A stretch of DNA of 33,879 nt from the NCBI GenBank assembly GCA_017992765.1, contig JAGOOA010000023.1, positions 1 through 33,879 on the forward strand, given 5' to 3'. Of the stretch, positions 1-33,653 are shown piece by piece; position 1 is the first letter of the stretch; each line of letters opens with the position of its first letter. The notes under the pieces were generated by a model. That model worked only from the letters and a program-made list of their open reading frames with translations, was not told the DNA's origin and ran no database searches. The position numbers and the translations under genes were made by a program. Source of the DNA: Syntrophorhabdaceae bacterium. Its GTDB lineage: Bacteria > Desulfobacterota > Syntrophorhabdia > Syntrophorhabdales > Syntrophorhabdaceae.

Positions 1-53
1 GCATTGTAGGATTTTGACAGGTCCCGGGCAAAGAGCTTTGCTGTTGCAGACAT
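1..53 (-). CDS. lptB: LptB, LPS export ABC transporter ATPase (N-terminal fragment)
   Basis: An ATG at 53-51 overlaps the stop of the upstream LptC/LptA gene in a TAATG junction and opens a frame running off the left edge. The 17 visible residues, MSATAKLFARDLSKSYN, have the look of an ABC ATPase start (short lead-in, then a beta strand ending in the aromatic A-loop region, xLxKSYx). In Geobacter-type genomes lptB follows lptC/lptA, so LptB, the cytoplasmic ATPase that drives LPS extraction by LptFGC, is the natural call. Identity rests on context plus this short stretch; another ABC ATPase cannot be excluded. No Walker motifs are inside the window. Confidence 0.7.
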   Translation of the reverse strand, partial: MSATAKLFARDLSKSYN

Positions 54-964
54 TATCTTTCCATCCTCATCTTCGGTTTTTGGATCGAGAACCTTCCGCT
101 CGATACAGAGTATACGACCGATTCACCTACCATCTCCACATTATCCTTGAATATTCTCGGCGATTCGGTAAACACAACTTTATCCTCGTTAAAATAGTAT
201 ACCGCCTTTTCGCTTTTCGCAATAGTCCCTTTTGAGATCAAACGCACCTTGCCCTTCGCGTCTATCCTCTCCGGGTCCTGGCCTTTGCTGAAAATATAGA
301 GCTTATCGCAGAGCATGTTCATATCCTGGCCTTTTAATACCACTTTTCCGTCAAGGACGTAGGTATTGTCTTTCAGGTTATAATAGAACGAGTCTGATTG
401 AAAATGAAACTTTGCCTTTTCGCTATCTATATAACCCCTTACGTCCCTTTCAATTCTCACGGTTTCATCTTTCATGTTCGCTACCAACCCGATGCCTGTC
501 AGTGTCAGCTTTTTTCCTTTCACATCCACGGGGGACGCAGTCGATGTAATGTTGTTTTTGAAATCGAAGCTCATGGAAGGGCTTTTCAAGGTGTACTCGC
601 CTTTGTAGAGAATGTCTACGTCCTCAACAACCCCTTTTTCCTTGTCGGTATCCATTGTCCCTTTTGTGCCTTTAAATGCAACAGTGACCCCTGCCTTCGG
701 TTTGTATTGCCCTGCCAGATGCTCCAGCTGGACCTCGGGCTTATCGATAAGTTTTTTTGCTGTTTTTGCCGTGATCTCCCAATCGATGATGCCCTCCCTC
801 TCGCCAAAGTATCTCACGTCCTTAAAGAGAATGGCGCGCTTTTCTTCATTGAGGATGGGAGAAGCTATTCTTTCAGGCTTTTTGAGGAAAAAATAGAAAG
901 CCAGCAAAAGGCTTAAAACAATAAATCCTGCGGCTATATAAATAATGATCTGCCTGTTTTTCAT
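53..964 (-). CDS. lptC: LptC with LptA-like C-terminal half (LPS transport bridge protein)
   Basis: The 303-residue protein starts with one hydrophobic anchor (about residues 6-27, rich in I, L, F) and no cleavage site. Residues about 30-165 fit the LptC periplasmic fold. Residues about 175-300 read as a second OstA/LptA-type domain, with features such as LDGKVVLKG, IDAKGKVRLISKG and a repeated Y-x-F-N-E-D pattern. LptC proteins are usually about 190 residues, so this one is a third longer, and no separate lptA lies between it and lptB. The likely role is an inner-membrane-anchored bridge that receives LPS from LptBFG and passes it across the periplasm. The start chosen is ATG 964, preceded by GAGGA; the in-frame TTG one codon upstream is less likely. 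It follows kdsD by 128 bp and overlaps lptB by one base. Confidence 0.85.
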   Translation of the reverse strand: MKNRQIIIYIAAGFIVLSLLLAFYFFLKKPERIASPILNEEKRAILFKDVRYFGEREGIIDWEITAKTAKKLIDKPEVQLEHLAGQYKPKAGVTVAFKGTKGTMDTDKEKGVVEDVDILYKGEYTLKSPSMSFDFKNNITSTASPVDVKGKKLTLTGIGLVANMKDETVRIERDVRGYIDSEKAKFHFQSDSFYYNLKDNTYVLDGKVVLKGQDMNMLCDKLYIFSKGQDPERIDAKGKVRLISKGTIAKSEKAVYYFNEDKVVFTESPRIFKDNVEMVGESVVYSVSSGRFSIQKPKMRMER

Positions 965-1092: not shown

Positions 1093-2060
1093 TCACACTA
1101 TCTTTGCCTTTAAAAGATCATGGATATGGATAATGCCTACCGGCTGGGCATCTCCCTCCCCCGCCGTTACAAAGAGCGATGTGATGGAAAACTCCTCCAT
1201 CACCTTCAGCGCATAAGCGGCAAGGGCGTCTTTCCTTATCATCTTTGGTTTCCCGGTCATCACATCGGCAGCCTCTTTTGTCAATAAAAGCCTGTCGTGC
1301 CTTTCGATCGCCCTCCGGAGGTCGCCGTCTGTGATGACCCCGATCAGGTTTTCCTCCCCGTCATAGACGCCTGTCACGCCCAGTCTTTTTGATGTGATCT
1401 CAAGGATAACGTGCTTCATGCCGGCCGTTGCGTATACTTTCGGCATCGCCTCGCCCGTGTGCATAAGGTCTTCAACCTTCAAGAGCAGTTTCCTCCCCAG
1501 CGTACCGCCCGGGTGGAGCGAAGCAAAATCCTCTATCTTGAATATATTCTTCTCCATCAATGCGATGGCAAGGGCATCGCCGAGTGCGAGCGTTGCCGTA
1601 GTGCTCGACGTAGGTACCATATTGTATGGGCAGGCTTCATCGACCCTGAAGTTAATCACCACATCTCCATGGGCAGCTACCGTAGAGTCTTCTTTGCTTG
1701 TAATGACGATCGTAGGTATGCCCATCCTTTTTACCCAGGGAAGAATCTTTATGATCTCTTCCGTTTCGCCGCTGTTGCTTACCGCGATGAGCACGTCCCC
1801 CTTCTGAAGCATTCCGAGGTCGCCGTGAAGAGAATCGGCAGGATGCAGAAACATCGCGGGGGTTCCCGTACTGGAAAGCGTGGAGGCGATCTTTTTGCAG
1901 ATAAGCCCTGATTTACCCATTCCCGAGAGAACAACCCGCCCGGTACATCCGTGGATTATATCGATTGCCCTGTCAAAGCTGTCGCCCAGCCCGTTCATCA
2001 CCTGGATTATGGCTTCCGCCTCTTTTCTCAGAACCTCTTTGCCGATTTCCATGAAAGAGC

Positions 2061-2064
<4 letters not shown>
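1093..2064 (-). CDS. kdsD: D-arabinose 5-phosphate isomerase (KdsD/KpsF)
   Basis: It interconverts ribulose 5-phosphate and arabinose 5-phosphate, the first step of KDO synthesis, in the cytoplasm. A SIS sugar-isomerase domain fills about residues 40-170 (SGMGKSG at 48-53, SNSGETEE near 96-103) and is followed by the conserved LHPGGTLGRKL segment. Two CBS domains follow at about 205-320, including GVITDGDLRRA. Length 323 matches the family (about 325). The start is GTG 2064, which overlaps the kdsA stop as GTGA and has GAGGA six bases upstream; ATG 2052 is the alternative. It sits directly after kdsA, the enzyme that uses its product, so the two are translationally coupled. Confidence 0.95.
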
Positions 2065-5696
<3,632 letters not shown>

Positions 5697-8899: not shown

Positions 8900-9019
8900 A
8901 TTACCTCCTTTACGTCAGTTCATAGTCGATAGTATATCGTATATCGTATCAGAAGCACCAAGTAAATCCGAATAAGAGCCGTAAGGCGTCAGGCGGGAGG
9001 CGATTTAACCCCTTACCCC
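8900..9019. repeat. Intergenic repeat patch with a half copy of the 32-nt dispersed repeat
   Basis: AGTATATCGTATATCG at 8931-8946 is the first half of a 32-nt element found in five other places in the window. Next to it lie GTAAGGCGTCAGGCGGGAGG (8981-9000), a degenerate GGCGT-type tandem, and CCCCTTACCCCTTACGACTC with ACGACTTACGGG (about 9009-9041), a TTACG-type tandem that runs into the end of the radical SAM gene. Confidence 0.75.
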
Positions 9020-11673: not shown

Positions 11674-11832
11674 ATTGAGTAAGCACCAAATTCGAAGCAC
11701 GAAGCACTAAACAATATCAACATTCAAATATCAAATGCTCCAAGTAAATACAAGCTCTTTACGTTTTGAATTTTGGACATTTGGATTTGTTTAGGATTTA
11801 GAGATTCGATATGAGAATTTCGAATTTTAGGT
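11674..11832. repeat. Intergenic AT-rich dispersed element (family E, copy 1)
   Basis: The gap between recJ and pyrD contains GAAGCACTAAACAATATCAA at 11701-11720. The same 20 bases occur inverted at 19706-19725, and with a small insertion at about 13547-13570. It continues with ATTCAAATATCAAATGC and, after a centre near 11757, with degenerate complementary words (TTTTGAATTTTGGACATTTG, 11764-11783; GGATTTGTTTAGGATTTAG). No gene or clear promoter is visible. Confidence 0.8.
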
Positions 11833-13478: not shown

Positions 13479-13814
13479 AAATAACCTACGAATTGCGGCT
13501 CAACGTTCACAACGCCATATTGAAGTGAAGCAAACACAAAATCCTAAGCACTAAATACTAAACAATATCAAAATTCAAATGTTCTAAACAAATACATTTT
13601 TTATGTTTTGATATTTGAACATTGGAGCATTTGAATTTACGGAGGAAATGGCCCAAACCTAATGCAAGCATGGCGTCGGGATATCCCGGAGCAAACCGTC
13701 GTGAGGCAAGGAAGCTCGGTCTTTTGCGAAGCAAAAGTTCCGAAGCCGAACGGGAGCGAATGGAGCCGCAGGAGCGAAATGAGCGTGTTTGCGGGGGATG
13801 TCCCGACGCCATGC
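13479..13814. repeat. 336-bp gene-free gap holding two repeat elements
   Basis: The gap between pyrK and rimI contains no credible gene. From the pyrK side it holds the AT-rich family E element (about 13547-13640), then a GC-rich palindromic element (13667-13815). Open frames on both strands through the palindrome reflect its high GC and purine bias and resemble no protein known to me. Confidence 0.8.
13547..13640. repeat. Dispersed AT-rich element (family E, copy 2), itself an inverted repeat
   Basis: It begins AAGCACTAAATACTAAACAA and continues with TATCAAAATTC, which parallels copy 1 at 11702-11730 apart from an insertion of TACTA or similar. AAATTCAAATG (13571-13581) is perfectly complementary to CATTTGAATTT (13628-13638), so the element can fold into a long hairpin. 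A second degenerate pairing lies inside (GATATTTGAACATT). Confidence 0.75.
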
Positions 13815-19464: not shown

Positions 19465-19474
19465 TACGGCACGC

Positions 19475-19506
19475 AGTATATCGTATATCGTGATTCGTAT
19501 ATCGAA
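19475..19506 (+). repeat. 32-nt dispersed repeat (family A), full copy
   Basis: It reads AGTATATCGTATATCG followed by TGATTCGTATATCGAA. The consensus second half in other copies is TAGTTCGTATATCGAA. Other copies are at 25120-25151 and 33523-33554 on this strand, a half copy at 8931, and inverted copies near 20211-20243 and 33608-33648. Confidence 0.85.
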
Positions 19507-20153: not shown

Positions 20154-20262
20154 GCTATGTTTTGAATTTGTTTAGGATTTCGATATTAGGATGTAGGATT
20201 TGATTTTATATTTCGATATACGATATACGAACTACGATATACCATGGGCTGTCAGCCATGGA
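20154..20262. repeat. Convergent gap with families E and A plus a hairpin
   Basis: After the HNH stop come family E words (TTTGAATTTGTTTAGGATTT, 20161-20180, and variants), then an inverted family A copy (20211-20243: TTTCGATATACGATATACGA and ACTACGATATACC). Next to the purF-like stop is a hairpin CCATGGGCTG / CAGCCATGG (20242-20261) that could end leftward transcription; it lacks a strong T tail. Confidence 0.75.
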
Positions 20263-25102: not shown

Positions 25103-25330
25103 GCCGGCCCATAGACCACAGTATATCGTATATCGTAGTTCGCATATCGGGATTCTAAGAAATACCGTTCGGCGTGATGCGTTTAGCGTTCGGCGTAGAA
25201 ACCAAATGCTAGAGGCAGTACTAACCGGGGTATTCTGCCCCCCGCTCTTCTGATTTCAATCGTCCCTCGTCCTAGCGCAGCGGACGTCCCTCGTCCCTCG
25301 GTCCTTTTCCCTCGCCTCACGGATTTGTCG
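25103..25330. repeat. Convergent 228-bp gap with families A, C and D repeats
   Basis: It contains a full 32-nt family A copy (25120-25151), a GGCGT-type degenerate tandem (GTTCGGCGTGATGCG and TTAGCGTTCGGCG, 25167-25195), a GGGG-CCCC hairpin near 25227-25242, and three copies of GTCCCTC (25262-25268, 25286-25292, 25293-25299), the reverse complement of the GAGGGAC unit inside lolA. No gene is visible. Confidence 0.75.
25120..25151 (+). repeat. 32-nt dispersed repeat (family A), full copy
   Basis: It reads AGTATATCGTATATCG then TAGTTCGCATATCGGG, three differences from the consensus, all in the second half. It begins 18 bases after the dnaJ stop, in the convergent gap facing htpG. Confidence 0.85.
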
Positions 25331-29989: not shown

Positions 29990-32020
29990 ATGTCAACGGA
30001 ACTGAAAAAAGAGATCATAGGGGTAGGCCTGCTGGGGGCCTTTATCTTCCTCTTTGTAAGCCTTGTCTCCTACCATCCCCTTGACCCGTCGTTTCACACG
30101 GCTGCCGGGGGGGCAACGAGGAACCTCTGCGGCAAGGCAGGCTCGTACATCGCCGACCTTCTGATCCAGGTGTTCGGGATGATGAGCTACGCCATTGCCG
30201 CCGTCGCACTGTTTTTCGGACTGCTGTACCTGAAGAAGAAAGAGCCTCCGCATATACTGGTCTTCTCGGCAGGGCTGGTGCTGCTTTTTCTGGCGCTTAC
30301 CTCTCTTTTCCAGATCGTTATCGGCAAGATTCACCTGAGAGGTGTTCCTGTCGAATTCTCCGGCTTTCTCGGCTCTCTCCTCGAGAGGGCGCTGATGTAC
30401 GCATTCAATTATTTCGGCAGCATCCTTATATCCGCTATCATTCTCCTCATCTCGATATTCCTGATCATCCAGGCACCGCTCCTGTCTATCCTTGAAGAGA
30501 GGATCGCGCGGAGGAAGGTTGTCGAGCGCAGGAGGGAGATCAAGGTAACGGAGGAGAAAAAGGAGGAGCCGAAGGCGGAGAAAAAGGCCGCAGCCGTTCA
30601 GGAGACCTTCGAGTTCTTCAAGGAGATAGGGCCATATAAGCTCCCGCCGACGTCATTGCTTGATCCTGTTGAGAGGAAAGAGGTGAAGGTTGACAAGGAG
30701 AGCATCCAGGCCAACGCGAGCATACTCGAGAAGAAATTGAAGGACTACGGGATTGACGGAAAGGTCACGGAGGTCAGGCCGGGCCCCGTGATCACCATGT
30801 ACGAATTTGAGCCTGCGCCCGGCATCAAGGTGAGCAGGATCGCCAACCTTGCAGACGACCTTGCGATGGCCTTAAGCTCCGTATCGATACGGATCATTGC
30901 CCCCATACCCGGGAAGTCGGTGGTCGGCATAGAGATCCCCAATACGGTACGGCAGACGGTCTACCTGCGGGAGATCATCGAGTCGGATATGTTCGCCTCG
31001 TCACATTCACACCTCACGCTTGCCCTCGGTAAGACGATATCGGGGGAACCTTACGTTGCGGAACTTACAAAGATGCCACACCTGCTCGTTGCCGGTGCCA
31101 CGGGCTCGGGGAAAAGCGTCTCCCTCAACAGCATGATATGCAGCATCCTCTTCAAGGCAACGCCCACGAACGTACGGTTTCTCATGATCGACCTGAAGAT
31201 GCTCGAGCTGTCGTTCTACGAAGGCATACCCCACCTCCTCCTTCCCGTGGTGACGAACCCGAAGAACGCGAAAACGGCGCTCAGGTGGATGACCGATGAG
31301 ATGGAGCGCCGGTACTCGATGATGGCCGAAAAGGGCGTGAGGAACATAGAGAAATACAACCAGAAGATGGTGAAGCAGGAGTCGGAGACGATCCCCTACA
31401 TCGTTGTCGTTATCGATGAGCTCGCAGACCTGATGATGGTCTCGCCGAAGGAGGTCGAGGAATATATCGCGCGGCTGGCGCAGATGGCAAGGGCATCGGG
31501 CATCCACCTTATCCTTGCCACCCAGAGGCCTTCCGTGGACGTCCTGACGGGCATCATCAAGGCAAACTTCCCTGCGAGGATCTCATGCAAGGTCTTTTCC
31601 AAGGTGGATTCACGGACGATCCTCGATACCAACGGCGCAGAGAGCCTCCTCGGGTTCGGGGACCTGCTCTTTTTAAGCCCGGGTATCGGGAGGCTGCAGA
31701 GGCTCCACGGGCCTTTTGTCTCCGAAGGCGAGATACGGCGCATCGTTGAGTTTCTGAAACAGCAGGGGACCCCCACATACCACCAGGAGATACTGGAGGA
31801 AAAGGAAGAAGAGGATGGGGGGGAAGAGATGGATGATGAAAAATACCAGGAGGCGGTAGAGTTCGTCATGGCCAGGGGCGAGGCCTCCATCAGCATGATA
31901 CAGAGAAGGTTCAGGATCGGCTACAACAGGGCTGCGAGGATCATAGAGCGCATGGAGGCCGAAGGGGTCGTCGGCCCATCGGATGGAGTAAAGTCGAGAG
32001 AGGTGTTGAAGAGACAGTGA
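29990..32020 (+). CDS. ftsK: DNA translocase FtsK/SpoIIIE
   Basis: FtsK is a division-septum DNA pump that clears and resolves chromosome ends. Four membrane segments lie in the first 165 residues (about 9-28, 63-81, 88-111 and 145-163), followed by a short charged linker (170-205). The motor has the alpha domain, Walker A GATGSGKS (369-376), and Walker B VVVIDELADLMM. ATQRPSVDVLTG and LHGPFVSEGEI are typical. The C-terminal gamma winged helix (about 610-670) reads RRFRIGYNRAARIIERMEAE, the DNA-sequence reader. Length 676 is at the short end because the linker is compact. Its stop overlaps lolA as GTGA. Confidence 0.97.
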   Translation: MSTELKKEIIGVGLLGAFIFLFVSLVSYHPLDPSFHTAAGGATRNLCGKAGSYIADLLIQVFGMMSYAIAAVALFFGLLYLKKKEPPHILVFSAGLVLLFLALTSLFQIVIGKIHLRGVPVEFSGFLGSLLERALMYAFNYFGSILISAIILLISIFLIIQAPLLSILEERIARRKVVERRREIKVTEEKKEEPKAEKKAAAVQETFEFFKEIGPYKLPPTSLLDPVERKEVKVDKESIQANASILEKKLKDYGIDGKVTEVRPGPVITMYEFEPAPGIKVSRIANLADDLAMALSSVSIRIIAPIPGKSVVGIEIPNTVRQTVYLREIIESDMFASSHSHLTLALGKTISGEPYVAELTKMPHLLVAGATGSGKSVSLNSMICSILFKATPTNVRFLMIDLKMLELSFYEGIPHLLLPVVTNPKNAKTALRWMTDEMERRYSMMAEKGVRNIEKYNQKMVKQESETIPYIVVVIDELADLMMVSPKEVEEYIARLAQMARASGIHLILATQRPSVDVLTGIIKANFPARISCKVFSKVDSRTILDTNGAESLLGFGDLLFLSPGIGRLQRLHGPFVSEGEIRRIVEFLKQQGTPTYHQEILEEKEEEDGGEEMDDEKYQEAVEFVMARGEASISMIQRRFRIGYNRAARIIERMEAEGVVGPSDGVKSREVLKRQ

Positions 32021-32703
32021 ACAGAAGCGAGGGACGAGGGACGAGGGACGAGGGACGAAAAAACGTTTGTTTTATAAATATTCTGGTATGCCTGCTGATG
32101 ATCATATGCGCAGGCTTCGCAAATGTTCATGCGGCGGATCCTTCTTCGCCTTTCGACGGTTTGAAGAAGACCTATTCGGGGGTAAATTCGCTGGAGGCGG
32201 AATTTCACCAGAAGATATTCATCGCGAGCCTGAAAAAGGACAGGACATTCGAGGGGGATTTTTATTATAAACGTCATAAGGGTTTTTTATGGAAGTACAG
32301 GGCGCCGAAGGTGAAGTTCTTTCTTTATGACGGGCAGTACATGTGGCAGGGAGAGGATGAGAAGCCCTTTGTCGTAAAAGAGAGGATAAGAAAGGAGAAG
32401 ACGACGGGCACGTTCCTCGACCTTATCGAAGACATAGCGAGGATGGACGAGCTCTTCACGTTAAAGCAGCAGTCGATCGCAGGCAGCCTTGAAGTGCTGG
32501 AGATCGTGCCGAAGAAGGACAGCACGGTGAACGCGGCAAAGATCTGGATTGATAAACAAAATATTGTGCGGAAGATCGAGATCCATGAATTCACCGGCAA
32601 CATCAATACGATAGAATTTTCAGCGGTGAAGATCAACCGGGGCATCGACGATGGGCGGTTCATATACAGGCCGGAAAAAGGCAAGGAGATCGTGGAAAGA
32701 TAA
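32017..32703 (+). CDS. lolA: Outer-membrane lipoprotein carrier LolA
   Basis: LolA ferries lipoproteins across the periplasm. The 228-residue protein has a hydrophobic signal segment (about 17-34, CFINILVCLLMIICAGFA) with probable cleavage after VHA (39). The mature part shows the family pattern: SLEAEFHQ, the strand pair GDFYYKRHKGFLWKYRAPK, and LYDGQYMWQGEDE. The GTG start overlaps the ftsK stop by 4 bp. The unusually long n-region is coded by four perfect GAGGGAC units (32029-32056), a word also found in an intergenic gap here. The next in-frame ATG (32098) would leave a truncated signal. The recO ATG overlaps its stop as TAATG. Confidence 0.88.
   Translation: MNRSEGRGTRDEGRKNVCFINILVCLLMIICAGFANVHAADPSSPFDGLKKTYSGVNSLEAEFHQKIFIASLKKDRTFEGDFYYKRHKGFLWKYRAPKVKFFLYDGQYMWQGEDEKPFVVKERIRKEKTTGTFLDLIEDIARMDELFTLKQQSIAGSLEVLEIVPKKDSTVNAAKIWIDKQNIVRKIEIHEFTGNINTIEFSAVKINRGIDDGRFIYRPEKGKEIVER
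32029..32056 (+). repeat. Four perfect GAGGGAC tandem units inside the lolA signal region
   Basis: The unit is seven bases, so each copy is read in a different frame, giving the residues EGRGTRDEGR. The reverse complement word GTCCCTC occurs three times at 25262-25299. Confidence 0.9.
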
Positions 32704-33488: not shown

Positions 33489-33653
33489 ATCGCTCTCCAG
33501 CTTTCAGCTATCAGCGAACAGCAGTATATCGTATTTCGTAGTTCGTATATCGAACTACTTTTTACCTTTCACGGAGTTTCCCTTCACGCTTACGTTTTCT
33601 TTAGAATTTCGATATACTATATACGACATACGAAATACGATATTATACAGGAC
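33489..33653. repeat. Convergent gap with an inverted pair of family A repeats
   Basis: The direct copy (33523-33554: AGTATATCGTATTTCG, then TAGTTCGTATATCGAA) faces an inverted, slightly longer copy (about 33608-33648). The arms are about 53 bases apart and could form a cruciform or an RNA hairpin readable from either side. The word CAGCTTTCAGCTATCAGC (33499-33516) precedes it. It stands between two converging genes. Confidence 0.8.

Follow-up and report, generated by a model that had tools for sequence, protein, structure and literature searches.

A natural LptC–LptA fusion conserved across the Syntrophorhabdales, with a further LptA module carried on BamD in the same order

LptC and LptA, two parts of the bridge that carries lipopolysaccharide (LPS) across the periplasm, are reported to connect through an antiparallel beta-sheet that runs on from one to the other, in the manner of "lego" bricks (PMC5575297). 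The same paper describes Escherichia coli LptA as soluble, calls the number of its units in the bridge unknown, and reports that E. coli can grow, at least to some extent, on LptA that does not oligomerize (PMC5575297). A six-protein bridge that lacks LptC is reported to function when an E. coli suppressor strain makes LptA in excess (PMC9972910). In diderm Firmicutes, LptA- and LptC-like modules lie beside lptB and lptF/G in two OstA-domain proteins (PMC5007114); they resemble the locus analyzed below in that respect and differ from it in being two separate proteins of about 200 residues each. Among the open-access full-text matches listed in our literature search, none described, judging by its listing, a natural LptC–LptA or BamD–LptA fusion.

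We analyzed a stretch of 33,879 nucleotides (the window) from a Syntrophorhabdaceae bacterium, which is G000:C31:1-33879 in our collection, G000 being the window's own assembly. The fusion gene lies on the minus strand, from 964 to 53 (Table 1), and encodes 303 residues from its ATG; the forward reading of 53-964 holds several stops. A TTG one codon upstream, at 967, is an alternative start (967 to 53), and the Pfam residue numbers given here were counted from it. Pfam placed PF06835 (LptC) on residues 17-181 (E = 7e-14, above the gathering score) and PF03968 (LptA/LptD_N) on residues 190-291 (E = 1e-10; 42.2 bits versus a gathering score of 20.4). The earlier note, made from the sequence alone, had described a 303-residue protein with one N-terminal anchor and two successive beta modules, the second LptA-like; Pfam found both domains and the structural model agreed, confirming that one frame encodes an LptC module and, after it, an LptA-type module behind a single predicted anchor. 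Rfam, searched at gathering scores, matched nothing in the window.

Table 1. Features of the fusion locus in the window
Feature	Coordinates	Strand	Basis
LptC::LptA fusion gene, 303 aa	53..964	-	Pfam, NCBIfam; same fused frame in 44/46 order genomes
Single N-terminal membrane helix, residues 2-27	884..961	-	AlphaFold model
LptC module	425..922	-	PF06835 match; LptC 9dor_C fits residues 42-164 of the model, Z 9.9
LptA/LptD_N module, residues about 183-303 (coordinates are those of the Pfam core)	95..400	-	PF03968; LptA 2r1a_C alignment
Start of lptB, overlapping the fusion stop	1..53	-	TAATG; relative's gene L012:2415-2961 above LptB cut-off
Upstream operon gene, SIS-CBS type	1093..2064	-	Open frame; like neighbor upstream in the 12/17 loci read on the coding strand
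Second upstream operon gene	2061..2873	-	Open frame; most of those 12 loci also have it upstream

The fusion is like LptC (TIGR04409, PF06835) in its single N-terminal anchor, its jellyroll, and its position upstream of lptB in the lpt operon, and it scored 60.0 bits over residues 8-179 with NCBIfam model TIGR04409 (LptC_YrbK), above the equivalog cut-off of 38. It exceeds LptC in length by about 120 residues and has an additional jellyroll in line; separate LptC frames have 184-251 aa. The second module shares with LptA (TIGR03002, PF03968) its Pfam family, its fold, and its place between lptC and lptB. Unlike LptA, it carries no signal peptide of its own and is not soluble, starting directly where the LptC module ends (strand 168-180 is followed by 185-190), and it scored below the equivalog cut-off of TIGR03002 (outer_YhbN_LptA; 47.7 versus 71.7 bits); with the same model and cut-off, the fusion's LptA module in order locus L025 scored 42.6 bits. 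A profile made from six free LptAs matched the second module of the window's fusion at 68 bits, and both the Pfam LptC model and the LptC profile built here ended at residue 181.

An AlphaFold model of the fusion, based on 21 related sequences (pLDDT 87.7, pTM 0.75), begins with a helix and continues from residue 37 to residue 301 in strands with short turns, and the join between the modules (180 to 185) is no longer than the other turns. The model of the L122 protein, 36% identical, has the same layout (pLDDT 85.4), and it is not independent of the window's model because the two alignments are nearly the same. With VIA-align, residues 183–303 aligned with LptA 2r1a_C (Z 15.8, rmsd 2.3, 120 residues), as predicted for an LptA jellyroll, the LptC match of the first half had an rmsd of 2.7 over 122 residues, and the LptD N-terminus (4q35_A) aligned with residues 120–293, spanning the join (Z 14.7, rmsd 2.4, 163 residues). 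Since the LptC crystal structures 3my2 (184–303 region) and 4b54 also fit the second half (Z 14.0), the fold alone cannot tell LptA from LptC there, and it is the sequence profiles that decide for LptA as the probable identity of this half. Structure prediction was one of the checks that the earlier note had proposed, and it yielded two jellyrolls in line, with strands unbroken across the join and the LptD N-terminus aligning over it; the two are predicted to form one continuous groove. MORN-type repeats aligned with the whole model as well (Z about 13), which we took as shared strand geometry, setting kinship aside. A sequence search of the PDB with the fusion was weak (best E 0.24).

The TAA stop of the fusion (55-53) shares bases with the ATG of the next gene. 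Only the first 53 bases of that gene are present, since window base 1 is also the first base of the assembly contig. We read this gene as lptB because the copy in relative L012 scored 257 bits, above the TIGR04406 (LptB) cut-off of 240, in agreement with the earlier reading that lptB follows immediately through the TAATG overlap. All 36 ABC-ATPase matches in G000 fell short of the LptB cut-off, in line with lptB lying in the missing sequence. Among the 17 order loci, an lptB-type gene directly follows the fusion in the 12 read on the coding strand (by eye; one locus ends within lptB), and in 11 of those 12, also by eye, the gene after lptB is what we take to be an rpoN-type gene. Upstream of the fusion in the window, we take the SIS-CBS gene to be of the KpsF/KdsD type and the second gene to be kdsA, with what is presumably pyrG also upstream. 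LptF and LptG are encoded in tandem in G000, and LptD is present. Outside the order, we read separate lptC-lptA-lptB genes (e.g., L028, L030, L033, L039, and L132-L135), so the observation that related genomes have an lptA where the window has none between the fusion and lptB held up. Elsewhere in the window, a frame that reads as LolA-like (32017-32703) comes right after a large frame that reads as FtsK-type (29990-32020).

Within the order Syntrophorhabdales, PF06835 identified LptC in 44 of 46 genomes, always with a frame length of 297-332 codons, and a side-by-side comparison of the two result tables placed PF03968 in the same 44 frames; unfused LptC was found in none of the 46 genomes by this search. 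Comparing lptC length in close relatives, another check put forward earlier, thus returned the fused frame in 44 of 44 LptC-bearing genomes. The remaining PF06835 matches in the order, including one that raises the tally to 45, sit in BamD::LptA or LptD frames. The two genomes without an LptC by PF06835 were G402 (74% complete) and G418 (96%), whose weak match lies in its BamD::LptA frame. In a draw of 395 genomes from the phylum, matches over the whole protein (residues 1–304, or almost) occurred in 17 genomes including the window's own, and these were all 17 order members drawn; outside the order, the matches listed covered one half of the fusion or the other, the fusions of family f15 being represented by their LptC half. 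A scan of public contigs with a single LptA-module peptide pattern found relatives of the fusion in 22 of 105 stretches, in records titled Syntrophorhabdus, Syntrophorhabdaceae, Syntrophus, Syntrophobacterales, unclassified (delta)proteobacteria, or "uncultured bacterium". These named records place the fusion lineage in or near Syntrophorhabdus/Syntrophorhabdaceae, although some of the titles just listed give another name or a broader one. One alignment used 16 of 17 sequences (L022 left out), and a second used 20 of 22 loci (L102 and L120 left out).

A further LptA module (PF03968) was present in 44 of the 46 order genomes, in one of them as a fragment at a contig edge. In 43 of the 46, a single BamD over the TIGR03302 cut-off lay in the same frame as this second module (compared by eye); no BamD exceeded that cut-off in G000, G266, or G395, and the BamD::LptA fragment of G266 begins at base 4 of its contig. 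The first five such proteins that we read consisted of a lipoprotein-type BamD, a linker, and LptA, and Cys18 at the N-terminus was invariant in 8 of 8 aligned rows, consistent with a lipoprotein. By TIGR03002, the BamD-borne module of four order proteins scored 74.8, 76.7, 80.9, and 71.6 bits, so that three of the four passed the cut-off. Examples with a long linker before the C-terminal LptA are L042:613-1875, L069:1441-2703, and L041:424-1875, with others at further loci, and BamD::LptA was found in all 14 genomes searched behind the named loci (14 of 22 loci). BamD::LptA, seen in the order and in families f9, f10, f14, f22, and f43, is like the fusion in that an LptA module is covalently tethered; it differs in that the module sits on the BamD lipoprotein at the end of the linker and falls outside the window module's group in the tree. 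The idea that these organisms hold no other LptA is ruled out by this third PF03968 protein, read as BamD plus LptA. The claim that there is no separate lptA therefore survives for G000 as assembled, where PF03968 matched two proteins, the fusion and LptD, and fails for the order, and the fusion is probably not the only LptA of the window's organism.

G000, rated 95% complete, yielded no BamD at all. We compared it with the BamD::LptA segment of the same-genus genome G342, which carries what we take to be ATP synthase genes, parB, parA, rsmG, BamD::LptA, a thioesterase gene, and trxA. The first 10 kb of that segment had no DNA match in G000 apart from a repeat immediately beyond the end of the BamD gene (40 of 119 candidates scored). 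The window and G342 are 85–93% identical in DNA over long comparable blocks, close enough for the search to have picked up the segment had it been in the assembly. A gap in the assembly is the simple reading of this absence, with loss as the alternative; real absence from the window's species is unlikely given the unmatched 10-kb segment at such identity, and this organism probably carries BamD::LptA too. With the whole 17-kb G342 segment as the query and 40 of 297 candidates scored, dispersed repeats swamped the search, and the 57 matches, spread over the genome, all fell in three short query stretches. The window, too, has dispersed repeats in which ATATCG/TATACGA and TTTAGGATTT motifs abound (8915-8948, 11678-11806, 13529-13580, 19473-19506, 20199-20245, 25118-25151, and 33521-33554).

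Fusions of similar build occur in other families. In f15, of the same phylum, both loci read (L144:1107-2153 and L145:818-1909) encode LptC then LptA in one frame with an lptB-type gene directly after it, as in the window; unlike the window's fusion, these proteins have 348-363 aa and a linker of roughly 27-36 residues, and the best trees set them apart from the order's fusion, with a single clade not rejected (p-AU 0.32 and 0.33). Searched with the BamD::LptA alignment at E 1e-40, the f15 genomes G013, G051, and G087 gave no hit, and so not a BamD either. In f9, 12 of 13 genomes among those listed matched BamD::LptA over nearly the full model, and a free lptA still lies between lptC and lptB in 4 of 4 loci (L132-L135). 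HMM searches of single examples detected BamD::LptA in f10, f14, f22, and f43 and weakly in f12; the f22 protein (L124:366-2789) has a third, C-terminal domain, Cds6_C NTF2-like (72.8 bits). The LptAs of f35 and f75 (L079, L080, L081, and L089) read as having an N-terminal FlgO-like domain (FlgO 19.1 bits in L080, below the cut-off of 22.6), and in L089 an lptB-type frame follows.

In the domain trees, the order's fusion LptA modules formed one group on a long branch (support 100/99 to 100/100), separate from the BamD-borne modules and from every other LptA module in the comparison; neither of the order's two fusions therefore looks like a recent copy of the other. The neighbors that the trees (141-143 columns) give this group are not trustworthy. 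Synteny suggests that the fusion's second module may descend from the operon lptA. The LptA-module trees used 74 of 100 rows and then 66 rows, with L036, L037, and L130 dropped as long branches; the 47 rows of the LptC tree included 16 kept from the order after thinning and 29 separate LptC frames of the length range given above.

Our preferred explanation, to which we assign a probability of roughly 0.62, is that one LptA module is built into the inner-membrane end of the bridge and another is tethered to BAM at the outer membrane. In support of it we observe both modules, one predicted anchor, a location in the lpt operon, conservation throughout the order, a continuous fold by prediction, and BamD::LptA in relatives. 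The periplasmic jellyroll of LptC would continue without a linker into an LptA-type jellyroll, so that the inner-membrane end of the LPS bridge would be one segment longer and covalent, turning the reported sheet joint between LptC and LptA into a covalent one. LptB2FG would pass LPS to the LptC module, from which it would slide into the fused LptA module, and the free C-terminal edge of that module could dock with the LptA module on the BamD linker. The next docking partner would be the LptD N-terminus, if the modules are arranged in this order. A fixed bridge of one built-in and one tethered LptA might then replace the soluble LptA pool and tie the bridge to the machine that inserts LptD, where coupling to BAM may play a role. 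The earlier claim that the fusion supplies at least the first segment of the bridge fits the anchored LptC and LptA modules and their predicted unbroken groove; any suggestion that it does so as the sole LptA probably does not hold.

Other explanations account for part of these observations. That the frame is an artefact, a missed frameshift or a chance opening that joins two genes, gained nothing from our searches beyond the nearness of a contig end, and we rule it out, with virtually no residual doubt, because the same fused frame is kept in 44 order genomes of three families and in named records, which shows that the fusion is not due to chance. A more substantive, though still unlikely, explanation is that the fusion replaces LptA entirely and reaches LptD directly, while the LptA-type module of BamD serves only BAM, for example in folding or recruiting LptD. 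The two PF03968 proteins of G000 would suit such an arrangement, as would the E. coli suppressor without LptC, in which a bridge with fewer modules can work (PMC9972910), and BamD's module need not be a part of the bridge because in f9 BamD::LptA coexists with a free LptA and so can have a separate job. The BamD-borne module, however, is the more LptA-like of the two (71.6-80.9 bits in the four order proteins scored), it is present in 44 of 46 order genomes, and G000 has a gap exactly at the BamD::LptA segment.

It is less likely again, and in our view rather improbable, that the second module is an elongated end of LptC, a spacer rather than a working LptA, with BamD::LptA as the true LptA. 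Its score below the LptA equivalog cut-off, its long branch in the domain trees, its want of a signal peptide, and its fit to LptC crystal structures (Z 14.0) all point that way, and from the first two of these, read at the level of sequence, the module may have lost or changed LptA functions. Against a spacer stand the 68-bit match of the free-LptA profile beyond the end of the LptC models at 181, the better fold match to LptA (Z 15.8), and the place of the module where lptA lies elsewhere. In mechanics, a spacer would differ little from the preferred explanation with its two LptA modules.

By itself, a natural LptC–LptA fusion in one lineage is a variant on known parts of the Lpt bridge and a moderate finding. 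Its interest grows with the module on BamD, since the number of LptA units in the bridge and the way in which the bridge finds LptD are open questions in E. coli, and a lineage with one LptA on LptC and another on BamD offers a natural, countable bridge. We put forward, as a tentative proposal that falls somewhat short of even odds, that the Syntrophorhabdales have no soluble LptA and instead build a two-ended covalent bridge, in which LptC::LptA from the inner membrane would meet BamD::LptA from the outer membrane and gene fusion would set the number of segments. Because the two fusions would meet in mid-bridge, BAM and Lpt would physically be one assembly. The fusion and the BamD-borne LptA across the order thus present a testable bridge tethered at both membranes and a testable link between BAM and Lpt.
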